From: Buttiauxella selenatireducens
GTDB taxonomy: Bacteria > Pseudomonadota > Gammaproteobacteria > Enterobacterales > Enterobacteriaceae
Direction: 5' to 3'
Assembly: GCF_031432975.1 (NCBI RefSeq)
Contig: NZ_CP133838.1
Location: 496,001-560,000 of the forward strand
DNA: 64,000 bases
Part shown: piece after piece, positions 46,590-50,179 of the stretch
Layout of the letters: every line of letters begins with the position of its first letter
How positions within the stretch are numbered: position 1 is the first letter of the stretch
Notes under the pieces: model-generated
Databases searched by the model: none
Told to the model about the DNA's origin: nothing
What the model saw: only the letters and a program-made list of their open reading frames with translations
Program-made: the position numbers and the translations under genes

Positions 46590-47240
46590 ATGAGCCAGGT
46601 TTTACTCACAGGGGCTACGGGCCTCATCGGTGGACATCTGTTACGCATGTTGATTGGGGAGCCGCAAGTCAGCCACATCGTTGCGGCAACACGCCGTCCC
46701 TTGCCTGCGATGAACAAAGTCACCAATCTATACGATCCCCAGTTGAGCGATGTGCTCACCCAATTAACCGAGCCGCTTGATACGGTTTTCTGCTGCCTCG
46801 GCACCACCATGAAAGAAGCCGGCAGCAAAGAGGCTTTCGTATTAGCGGATTACACGCTGGTGGTGGATACCGCGATAACTGGCTTGCGTCTGGGTGCAAA
46901 ACATATGCTGGTGGTCAGCGCTATCGGTGCAAACAGCAAATCGCCGTTCTTCTACAACCGGGTGAAAGGGGAAATGGAAGAGGCGCTTATCGCACAAGAG
47001 TGGCCGCGCCTGACGATTGCCCGCCCGTCTATGCTGCTTGGGCACCGTGAATCACAGCGTTTTAATGAATCGCTGTTTGCACCGTTGTTTAAACTCATGC
47101 CGGGAAAATGGAAGTCTATTGAGGCCAGGGATGTGGCGAAGGCGATGCTACATGAAGCGATTTCCCCCTCACACGAAGCCGTGAGTATCCTCGACTCGCG
47201 CGAGTTGCGGGAAATCGCTCAACGCACTACTGCTGACTAA
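46590..47240 (+). CDS. yraR: NAD(P)H-binding epimerase-like protein YraR
   Basis: This is an atypical short-chain dehydrogenase, NAD(P)-binding Rossmann protein of 216 residues. The dinucleotide motif is [10 protein letters not shown] (about 7-16); [22 protein letters not shown] and RPSMLLG are conserved with E. coli YraR. The catalytic role is unknown. It is the last gene of the 71-min block: dolP and diaA, which follow nearby in E. coli, are missing, and its stop overlaps the stop of the next, convergent gene. Confidence 0.88.
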
Positions 47241-49339
47241 TTTTCCTCACCCATTTGTCGCTCAAAGGCCTGACGTATCAATCCCATGACGTAGGGCAAC
47301 TGATCTAGGGAGGAAAGCCCAACCTCAACATTACCGTTGCCCCAACGGCCTAAATGCGTGACGTCTTTTGCCAGGCCTTTAGGGTCGGACAGTTCATAAA
47401 AGGGCATATAGATCGATAATCTCAGGCGGCTCTTTTGCGGCACGACATCAACGAAATTCGTTTCTGCTTTATAAACGACATAAAGCTTGGTGAATTCCTC
47501 CGTCACTCCCGCATCTATTTCCAGCACCTGTTGGCGAAAAGCATCAAAAACAGCTCTCATTGGAGCGTTACTCGATAAATGTGGATGGTCGTTCAGACTC
47601 CAGGCTGTGTTTCTGGTTTTTTTCTCGGCATAACCGACAAGGATTCCTGATGGAAGCTTTGGTGCTTGCCAGACATCGACTGCGGTCTGCGCCAACATTT
47701 GTGCTCGACCGATAATCCCCTGTTCGTTCCAGTGGTTTAAACTGCCTAAGCCTTTATTCAAACGCAGCGGGCTTTCTTTAAATCCACCTTTCATATTGCA
47801 CTTATCGGCAAAAATGCGATTGCTGTATTCAGAGTTATAGCCTGTTAGCGTCAGGTTACCGAGCGTATGCAAATACGTTTCCTGGATCTGTTTCCAGTTA
47901 CTCCCCAGCGCTTCCTGCCAGGCAGTGGGCAGTGGCGTTTGCTGTGGCAGAATGTGCTCAATGGTATATTCATCTACCGCGACACGTTCTTTACGGCCTT
48001 CATTTTCCAGGCGGCGCAGCCAGTAACTACGGTTGCGAAAGTTATAAAGATCGCGTTTTTGAATTTCACGTTTAAATTCTTCGTCATCAGGAAAACGCCG
48101 ATAAGACGGTAAAGCTTGCAGGTACGCCTGAATACTTTCCAGATAAGATTTTTTATTTAGTGATTTCTTAATGGTTGCAAAAGTTTTATTCAGTGAATTA
48201 GTGGGTATGGCACAAACGGCACGACGAAAAACATAGGATTCAATTAGCCTTATCGCCGACACAAAATCCGTTACCGAAAAATGATTATGTTGATAATCAT
48301 GATAAAGCTCTAACAAGAAAGGATAGGCGACATCAACTTTCAGTTCGCGTAAATCTTTGAAACCTAAAGCAAGCTGCTTATCGGATTCTCTGTTCAGTGC
48401 CATTGCGCAATAGTAACCAGCGTATATTTGAATATCAGCTACCAGTTGGTCTACGCCACTATTGTGATTTTTTGGCTCAAGGGCATAAGCTTTAAAAGCT
48501 TCATAAACATCATCTATACGCGGAATATTTCCGGTTTTTACCGTCAGATAATGGCGCATAAAACTGTCAAATTGCGCGTTATAACCTTCCTGCCCGAATG
48601 CGACTTCCATCGGACGCCAATAGTCTTCATATAATCGGGTTTGATGCTCTGGCTCCAGCCCCATCAAAATAAAATTACGGATGAGGTCTGCCTGGCTCAA
48701 AGCTTTACCCGTAGAGTTCATACTTTCAAATATGAGTTGAGGATTATCCTGCCCGCGGCTTAGTGCGACATCAACAATCAATAGCTTTGCCAGCCCTTTA
48801 CAGACAAACAGTAAATTTTCTGGATATTTGCCTAATTGCTCGTCAAAGAAATCAAAGTTTTCTTTCAGGCGAAGCGAATAGTTTTCTGGCCACGACTTTT
48901 GTCGCAGTAAGGCAAGCAAAGATTCTTTATCTGTTTGTGTCAGAAGGAGTTTGAACGCTCGTTCGCCTGCTTCAAGATCGTTTAACAAATAATAATGGCG
49001 CAATTTGCGGGCAGAGAAACCCTCCAGAGGTTCGCTATCACCCAGGTGCCGACATAGTGCTTCAATGATTAATGTTGCCGTAGTCAGGCGCTGTTGGCCG
49101 TCAATGACTAAAAGCGCTGATTGACTACTTACCTGATAAAGCCCTTGCTCGATATAGACCACCGAGCCAATGAAGTGGGCCGGGATATCTTCTCTTTGCC
49201 CGGCGCGAATAATGTCGTCCCAAAGTTGCTGGCATTGAGCAAGCGTCCAGGAATAATTGCGTTGATAAATGGGAATGACAAATTGCGGTGACTTCTTCAA
49301 AAAATCAAACAGGCGGGCTTCCGTGGCTTTCATAAGCAT
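47237..49339 (-). CDS. DUF262-DUF1524 (GmrSD-like) protein, probable type IV restriction/defence nuclease
   Basis: This 700-residue protein is not part of the E. coli core at this place. The N-terminal DUF262 (GmrS-like, ParB-type NTPase) domain has [10 protein letters not shown] (22-31), IDGQQRLTT (79-87) and [19 protein letters not shown] (204-222). The DUF1524 (GmrD-like, HNH-type) region has EH (461-462), [10 protein letters not shown] (493-502) and N507. A further C-terminal domain (about 570-700) looks like DUF5655. GmrSD fusions cleave phage DNA with modified cytosines; that is known for relatives and only inferred here. All key motif residues look intact. Its middle (48.1-48.6 kb) is visibly AT-richer than its neighbours. 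It sits at the synteny junction. Confidence 0.8.
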
Positions 49340-49462
49340 CCTTAACTCGGACCGATGTCGATTGCGGGGTTAAAAGTTGCAGGAAGCTTAGCGCTAAGAG
49401 GAAAATGAAATAGAGTGCTGCATCAAAGGGTTGTGTTAGAGATGTTAGGTTTTAGTGCTTTT

Positions 49463-49517
49463 CGACCCCAGAGAGCTAATCAATTTGCTATAGCTCTTTG
49501 ATAGCTTCATGGGGTCG
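49463..49517. repeat. Long imperfect inverted repeat at the synteny junction
   Basis: The outer arms CGACCCCA / TGGGGTCG are a perfect 8-bp pair, and an inner arm AGCTAATCAA / TTGATAGCT pairs with one bulge. It lies 13 bp beyond the nrdG stop. No T run follows on either strand, so it is not a standard terminator. The rest of the 49340-49530 spacer shows no other feature. Confidence 0.6.
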
Positions 49518-49530
49518 TTGAAGAAACGCT

Positions 49531-49995
49531 TTATCGCAAATGATGTACAACCTGGTTACTGCTGCCGCGCCAGATGAGTGACGGGTCTTTCAAATCCTGC
49601 ACGAATTTGCCGTCGATAAGCACGTTAATCAAATCCACCACTTCGCGCTGATCCGCAGTTAACTCATCAAGCTTATAACCGGTCCATATCCAGATATCTT
49701 TTCCGGGGCATTCTTCACGTACTCGCTTCACGAGTTTCAGGACGTCCGCAATATTTTGTGGATGAAGCGGATCGCCACCCGAAAGCGATAATCCCTGGCG
49801 GCGAATGCGGGTGTCGTTAAGATCGGCAATGATCCGATCTTCCATTTCCTGCGTGAAAGCCATACCGGAATTCAGCCGCCAGGTGCTTTTGTTGTAGCAC
49901 CCTGGGCATTCATGCACGCAGCCTGAAACAAACAGGGTGCAGCGGGTTCCTGGTCCGTTGACGATGTCGACGGGGTAGTATTGATGATAATTCAT
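49531..49995 (-). CDS. nrdG: Anaerobic ribonucleotide reductase activating protein NrdG
   Basis: NrdG is the radical SAM enzyme that installs the glycyl radical on NrdD. Starting at MNYHQYYPVDIVNGPG gives 154 residues as in E. coli; the longer open frame runs through the REP-like repeats upstream and is rejected. The 4Fe-4S/SAM motif is Cys26-x3-Cys30-x2-Cys33 (CVHECPGC), and LSGGDPL is the SAM-binding GGE-type loop. It is downstream of nrdD in one operon. Confidence 0.96.
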   Translation of the reverse strand: MNYHQYYPVDIVNGPGTRCTLFVSGCVHECPGCYNKSTWRLNSGMAFTQEMEDRIIADLNDTRIRRQGLSLSGGDPLHPQNIADVLKLVKRVREECPGKDIWIWTGYKLDELTADQREVVDLINVLIDGKFVQDLKDPSLIWRGSSNQVVHHLR

Positions 49996-50023
49996 TTCTG
50001 GTTCTCTAATGAGTACGCTGGTG

Positions 50024-50179
50024 CCCTCACCCCGGCCCTCTCCCACGGGGAGAGGGGGAAAAAAGTACCGCCCAGAAGGAGAGGTGAAAACTGTGCCGGG
50101 CAATCCCCTCTCCCACGGGGAGAGGGAGGAAAGCAGATTTGTCCCCTCTCCCTTGAGGGAGAGGGTTAGGGTGAGGGGG
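50024..50179. repeat. REP/BIME-like hairpin cluster between nrdD and nrdG
   Basis: Three near-identical hairpins with 9-bp arms CCCTCTCCC / GGGAGAGGG lie at 50036-50056, 50106-50126 and 50144-50165. The cluster is bounded by CCCTCACCCC (50024-50033) and GGGTGAGGGGG (50169-50179), so the outer units face each other. This is the layout of a bacterial interspersed mosaic element. Placed after nrdD in the nrdD-nrdG mRNA, it could protect nrdD from 3' decay. Confidence 0.8.

Follow-up and report, generated by a model that had tools for sequence, protein, structure and literature searches.

A GmrSD-family gene with a DUF5655 tail, probably a stand-alone type IV restriction enzyme, inserted between yraR and nrdG in Buttiauxella

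The 64,000-nucleotide stretch of Buttiauxella selenatireducens DNA analysed here (contig NZ_CP133838.1, positions 496,001 to 560,000; hereafter the window) holds, on its minus strand, one gene (47237–49339) that joins the DUF262 and DUF1524 domains of the GmrSD family to a C-terminal DUF5655 domain. We propose that this gene probably encodes a stand-alone type IV, modification-dependent nuclease of the single-chain GmrSD family, most likely displaced from a restriction-modification (R-M) setting. Judged by its sequence, it belongs to a known family and to a subgroup that is already in print; taken by itself, it adds one more example to a familiar class of defence genes, and what may be new about it are its DUF5655 tail and its orphan setting.

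Results

The gene is an uninterrupted reading frame of 700 codons. Because 45 of 53 homologue loci have no in-frame start codon upstream of the match, and because a ribosome-binding-site-like AAGGA motif lies 5 nucleotides before Met3, the protein probably starts at Met3 (position 49333) and has 698 residues (47237–49333); matches in the homologue loci mostly begin at the residue equivalent to Met3. Three Pfam domains were matched above their curated cut-offs, all on the minus strand: GmrSD_N/DUF262 (residues 12–224, 48668–49306, E = 3.4e-34), the GmrSD_C/DUF1524 His-Me nuclease domain (residues 416–551, 47687–48094, E = 2e-21) and DUF5655 (residues 587–693, 47261–47581, E = 2.7e-13). When the protein was aligned with 33 homologues from many phyla, the 34 sequences showed zero variation in the Q-R of IPIYQR, in DGQQR (49088–49102, minus strand, read in the sequence), in FES-NSTG and, numbered on the 698-residue protein, in E459-H460 of the EHxxP nuclease motif (47954–47959, minus strand), in P463 and in G492-N493-L494. 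Both sequence features of the GmrSD family are present: DUF262/GmrSD_N with DGQQR, and DUF1524/GmrSD_C carrying (D/E)HxxP together with the L-G-N-L motif of the Asn. A preliminary description of this DNA, made from its letters, had read an intact 700-residue GmrSD-like frame with these motifs and an extra DUF5655-like C-terminus, and had suggested a Pfam search; the open frame, the invariant motifs and the matches to all three domains bear it out.

A search of NCBIfam assigned the protein no family. In PADLOC, the best Orf5 and HEC-06 models span about residues 2–559, whereas residues 585–696 are all that is matched by two PDC-S18 models, which are 302 and 365 positions long; among the matches listed (25 of 35), no best stretch spans all three domains, and the label Orf5 was not traceable to a named system. 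The gene is the sole PF03235 match in the whole 5.22-Mb genome, and its composition differs from that of its surroundings, with a GC content of 0.447 against 0.500 for the window and a third-position GC of 0.44 against 0.58–0.62 for nrdD, yraR and treC.

The gene had also been put forward as the best candidate for an undescribed system. That view did not survive comparison with Escherichia coli, whose orthologues in the immigration control region (ICR) are already in print as GmrSD homologues (PMC4437046, PMC12707154; here and below, papers are cited for the passages available to us). The ICR homologues listed by He et al. in 2015 include the 733-residue APECO1_2080 of strain APEC O1 (PMC4437046). 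In that genome we read 697 open codons, which with 36 upstream give 733, and the product is 69% identical to the window protein over 694 residues, including all three domains. Full-length homology extending through DUF5655 is shared with the ICR subgroup (APECO1_2080 type); the yjiN–yjiA location is not, the window gene lying at yraR–nrdG and on a separate branch. APECO1_2080 has an Rpn gene (with a small open reading frame, ORF) on one side and symE on the other, with hsdSMR and mrr close by, in contrast to the orphan copy of the window. According to a 2025 review, 12% of enterobacterial ICRs contain GmrSD and 6% contain McrBC; one passage of it calls the ICR gene Eco94GmrSD (PMC12707154); Eco94GmrSD itself was placed by He et al. 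probably on a prophage (PMC4437046).

With the window protein as query, 1501 of 5426 complete E. coli genomes gave a match (1380 at a query coverage of at least 80%); an E. coli copy as query matched 1461 (1335 at that coverage) and K-12 mcrBC 591 (576). Among the E. coli loci read, the common form stands before symE and has yjiS or an Rpn gene as its neighbour; in K-12 this place is taken by yjiT, yjiV and mcrBC. A second ICR form (L117, L118) is intact and divergent from hsdM-hsdS-hsdR, and behind it come a gene of the Fic family and one for a BrnA antitoxin (brnA). We read the frames of 15 copies, picked from the listings and not at random: 12 were uninterrupted and 3 broken (L119, L124, L128), and with APEC O1 added, 13 of 16 were uninterrupted. 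By aligned length alone, 33 of 50 rows at 99% query coverage keep the frame, while the remaining 17 lack a single base. RefSeq splits 11 of the 13 uninterrupted copies, all 697-codon frames between yjiS or Rpn and symE (L070, L071, L120, L123, L125, L126, L127, L129, L130, L131 and L132, the last being APEC O1), so that a DUF262 fragment labelled as a pseudogene is listed next to another gene, and annotates the other two whole. We rejected the idea that the E. coli copies are decayed pseudogenes for the 12 of 15 with open frames, despite this annotation; as the splitting affects intact copies, the family may be undercounted in E. coli.

In most of the full-length loci examined, homologues of the gene are found in the neighbourhood of R-M genes. 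ORFs were called and clustered in 66 loci, namely 55 from a scan of GTDB contigs with the window protein, spread over many phyla, and 11 further regions. The three largest neighbour families were HsdS (27), HsdM (26) and HsdR (25), named from sequence, with one HsdR checked against Pfam and RefSeq names used in E. coli. Profiles built from these clusters were then counted in the 43 loci with an alignment of at least 690 residues at an identity of at least 40%; the count leaves out L030, where the gene was lost by the ORF picker, and 22 shorter or more distant matches, 3 of which have hsd genes. As raw counts, at least one hsd gene is present in 30 of the 43 loci, two or more in 24 and all three in 22, and among the 30 loci flanked by 4.5 kb or more of sequence on each side, 21 contain an hsd gene. 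An hsd gene overlaps the homologue or lies within 50 bp of it in 12 loci, and several homologues sit between hsdM, hsdS and hsdR with 4-bp overlaps.

It is conceivable, given such arrangements, that the protein is an R-M-dependent accessory of RloF-like or SspE/DndI-like type, a nuclease gated by type I methylation or type I proteins, which here would act through one of the unlinked hsd loci. RloF sits between hsdS and hsdR in Campylobacter (PMC4619093), the solved structures closest in fold are the phosphorothioate sensors DndI and SspE (PMC12707154), and the window genome has two hsd loci. Against dependence on such genes speak the 13 of 43 loci that lack an hsd gene in the DNA examined, some of them with other R-M genes, and B. 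izardii, which carries the gene and shows no full-length HsdR by PF04313; its only HSDR_N match lies in a 394-residue frame, close in size to a 412-residue HSDR_N protein of the window genome, and this favours stand-alone function. TgvAB, in addition, is regarded as a type IV system in its own right although it lies inside a type I operon (PMC11411939). We consider the accessory role unlikely.

A Pfam scan of 9 neighbours from 6 of the 13 hsd-less loci placed one homologue in a type III mod/res locus (L100), one near an AlwI-type enzyme (L022) and one near a ResIII/PLD protein (L057); in L034, L043 and L103 the scanned neighbours show no R-M-type genes. In L100 (G109:C4) the homologue stands between an SNF2-type helicase gene and the type III mod and res genes, possibly as part of a multi-gene defence operon.

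The window gene itself has no adjoining hsd gene of the kind seen in RloF-like, R-M-embedded loci. The preliminary description had called it a gene alone, which holds at its own locus and fails for the genome as a whole: two type I loci lie elsewhere, one at about 4.49 Mb (hsdRSM, with mcrBC next to it) and the other, an EcoA-like hsdRMS, near 1.39 Mb, and the three PF04313 matches of the genome are all outside the window. The HSDR_N-domain protein of 412 residues is encoded at about 0.237 Mb (G000:C1; L114, 3378–4616), next to an ORF that we take to be alcohol-dehydrogenase-like, and HSDR_N-matching frames of 360–413 residues occur in several other genomes of the genus. At the 4.49-Mb locus, HsdR and HsdM are 97% and 95% identical to their counterparts in genome G033, where a GmrSD homologue follows hsdR (L094); the window genome has mcrBC there instead (L112, 4.486–4.497 Mb), which looks like an exchange of type IV enzymes beside the same type I system. 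That GmrSD genes occur together with type I R-M systems has been published previously (PMC4619093).

What is the nature of the site that the gene occupies? It is flanked by genes whose domains were checked and which we take to be yhbQ, yhbP and yraR on one side and nrdG on the other. The left neighbour, yraR (46590–47240, plus strand), converges on the gene and overlaps it by 4 bp; the right neighbour, nrdG (49531–50103, minus strand), probably starts at MNYHQ inside the listed ORF. The order yhbQ-yhbP-yraR and then nrdG was found in all 12 genomes of the genus that were examined, including the window genome, and the B. izardii locus was read through as far as nrdG and nrdD. Between yraR and nrdG, eight genomes have an empty site with 19–127 bp separating the anchors used, two have a permease gene (G006, where Pfam identifies ArsP_1, and G010) and two have the GmrSD gene (the window genome and G005). 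Since the junction is present in 12 of 12 genomes and the site is empty in most, the junction is older than the gene. The gene had previously been tied to a rearrangement junction; that attribution falls, the junction being the normal arrangement of the genus. The gene is instead, on this comparison, a patchy insert near a convergent terminator and not the product of a rearrangement, and with carriage in 2 of 12 genomes it is not conserved in all relatives at this site, which, together with the lack of a phage phenotype, was to have counted against the reading in the preliminary description. The yraR–nrdG order presumably departs from that of E. coli.

A genome of the same species, G060, has an empty site with flanks about 96–97% identical near the insert and no match to the window protein. 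Relative to G060, in which the same anchors are 45 bp apart, the insert extends over approximately 47217–49528 and alters the last codons of yraR. Inspection by eye shows a short inverted repeat, its stem rich in GC, at seven of the eight empty sites, which seems to be a terminator that both genes share; at the remaining one (L074) the repeat is longer and of another kind. On the nrdG side of the insert, an inverted repeat read by eye, CGACCCCA...TGGGGTCG (49463–49517), could be a replacement terminator; it was not called in a scan for promoters and terminators, whose yield did not exceed that from shuffled sequences. The region upstream of the gene (49340–49528, minus strand) matches only itself in the genome and is partly alike in the two Buttiauxella copies. 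We dropped two candidate features here. A mobile unit with ends or target duplications was rejected, as the upstream stretch has no second copy in the genome and visual comparison with the empty site revealed no duplication; and the palindrome TTAGCGCTAA (49388–49397), common to the upstream regions of both copies, was set aside as a conserved operator, a weak case from two sequences that is missing from 14 other upstream regions compared. Between nrdG and nrdD, palindromic repeats CCCTCTCCC...GGGAGAGGG occupy 50024–50177; an exact 22-bp palindrome of this region occurs at 8 places in the genome, and the listed start of the nrdG ORF reaches into the repeats.

The second Buttiauxella copy, in B. 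izardii (G005, C18:4774–6867), is 87% identical to the window copy; the other genomes of the genus gave distant matches or none. Between the two copies, the NG86 estimates of nonsynonymous (dN) and synonymous (dS) divergence are 0.074 and 3.65 (saturated), a ratio of 0.02 that suggests selection on the protein. The flanking genes of these genomes have a dS of 1.26 (yraR), 1.11 (yhbS) and 0.68 (nrdD). The higher dS of the gene, together with the empty sites, suggests that the site gained the gene twice, and not that a single old gene was often lost, weakly so owing to the saturation of dS; the partly shared upstream region is compatible with either history. One may also consider the gene a passenger with no present function, as it is absent from most relatives, the same species included, and 3 of the 15 E. 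coli copies are broken. We give this view very little credence: the frame is intact, the catalytic residues are invariant and the dN/dS is low.

Outside the genus, homologues in other phyla reach 67% identity over nearly the full length (L020, a metagenome-assembled genome of Phycisphaerae), a degree of conservation that chance would not produce. Within its own family, 13 of 392 sampled genomes, from 11 of 154 genera, have a match at E ≤ 1e-100. In a tree of 48 proteins, the two Buttiauxella copies pair (100/100) inside an 11-member set (95/81) with two Psychrobacter and seven other enterobacterial proteins, the E. coli ICR copies among them, and another seven copies from enterobacteria group apart from these (100/99). 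This grouping suggests that enterobacteria acquired the gene at least twice. Phage records gave 12 matches, one over at least 80% of the protein, and plasmid records 800, of which 33 reached that coverage; of two plasmid regions inspected, one is near type I R-M genes and one is not.

A further candidate role is that of a general foreign-DNA or plasmid-conflict nuclease, which would act like PFLU4242 of Pseudomonas fluorescens SBW25 by causing DNA damage and an SOS response on the entry of certain plasmids instead of restricting phages. PFLU4242 has both DUF262 and DUF1524, and its deletion removes the fitness cost of pQBR57 and pQBR103; however, at about 1.6 kb and with two domains reported in the passages available, it probably represents another subfamily (PMC8544851). 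We judge this role improbable as the main one, and plasmid conflict and phage restriction are not mutually exclusive.

Discussion

In conjunction, these analyses lead us to propose the following model for the window protein as a stand-alone type IV enzyme. The DUF262 N-terminus would serve as a ParB/Srx-like NTPase and sensor, joined by a helical linker to the DUF1524 His-Me nuclease, with DUF5655 at the C-terminus. Cutting by DUF1524 would be licensed once abnormal DNA of a phage or plasmid, probably with modified bases, has been recognised, a step that nucleoside triphosphate (NTP) would control through DUF262. In R-M loci, homologues may act as a back-up against DNA that escapes the R-M enzyme because it is modified, and the window copy would be an orphan inserted at the yraR end beside nrdG. 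Nuclease activity, a requirement for modified DNA, the role of DUF5655 and an anti-phage effect are inferred for this protein; activity on glucosylated DNA has been published for other GmrSD members (PMC4437046).

Several points weigh against this proposal. The R-M association is given by raw hsd counts, and the 4-bp overlaps that homologues often share with hsd genes may reflect a need for the products of these genes. The literature available to us reports no activity for DUF5655-bearing members, and the ICR homologue is only 24% identical to active Eco94GmrSD, whose 93% identical APEC O1 homologue has 604 residues (PMC4437046). Among 15 enterobacterial GmrSD groups set against T-even phages, three named systems and five others were active, so that not every GmrSD group restricts such phages (PMC12373910).

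How does the window protein compare with characterised systems? Eco94GmrSD and CT596 GmrSD are likewise fusions of DUF262 and DUF1524 with a (D/E)H...N nuclease motif, but only two domains are described for them, in the passages at hand, as against three here. The solved chain of BrxU has 580 residues, about 120 fewer than the window protein, and BrxU belongs to a plasmid BREX island (PMC12707154). For a DndI/SspE setting, the window genome has no match to TIGR03183 (dndC), a model that stayed below its cut-off in all 14 controls (with matches in 5); ssp genes were not searched. TgvAB of Vibrio cholerae and RloF of Campylobacter jejuni are GmrSD-family genes embedded in type I R-M loci (PMC11411939, PMC4619093); TgvAB consists of two proteins, unlike the single chain in the window, and RloF is described, in the passages available, by DUF262 only.

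What, then, might the DUF5655 tail contribute? It is predicted to have an alpha-beta fold that may be akin to that of YdhG and of the double-wing family of YjbR and, less clearly, to a domain of T4 MotA. Pfam run on the tail alone returned DUF5655 and nothing else, no convincing sequence relative was found in the PDB (best E = 0.58), and DUF5655 is not named in the literature searched. The T4 MotA domain straddles modified phage DNA, with glucosyl-hydroxymethylcytosine in the major groove. We think that the tail, if the predicted fold is right, probably helps to hold or read duplex DNA. More tentatively, and as a possibility to which we attach limited weight, it could be a double-wing DNA-reading domain, fold kin of YjbR and T4 MotA.

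If that were true, this GmrSD variant would split the reading of modified DNA (DUF5655), NTP control (DUF262) and cutting (DUF1524) between domains, and the defence side would use the same kind of fold as T4 uses on its own DNA. The proposal gives DUF5655 a concrete, testable role. The window copy, for its part, shows that a three-domain GmrSD–DUF5655 gene, mostly found near R-M genes in the loci examined, can settle alone at an ordinary intergenic site.
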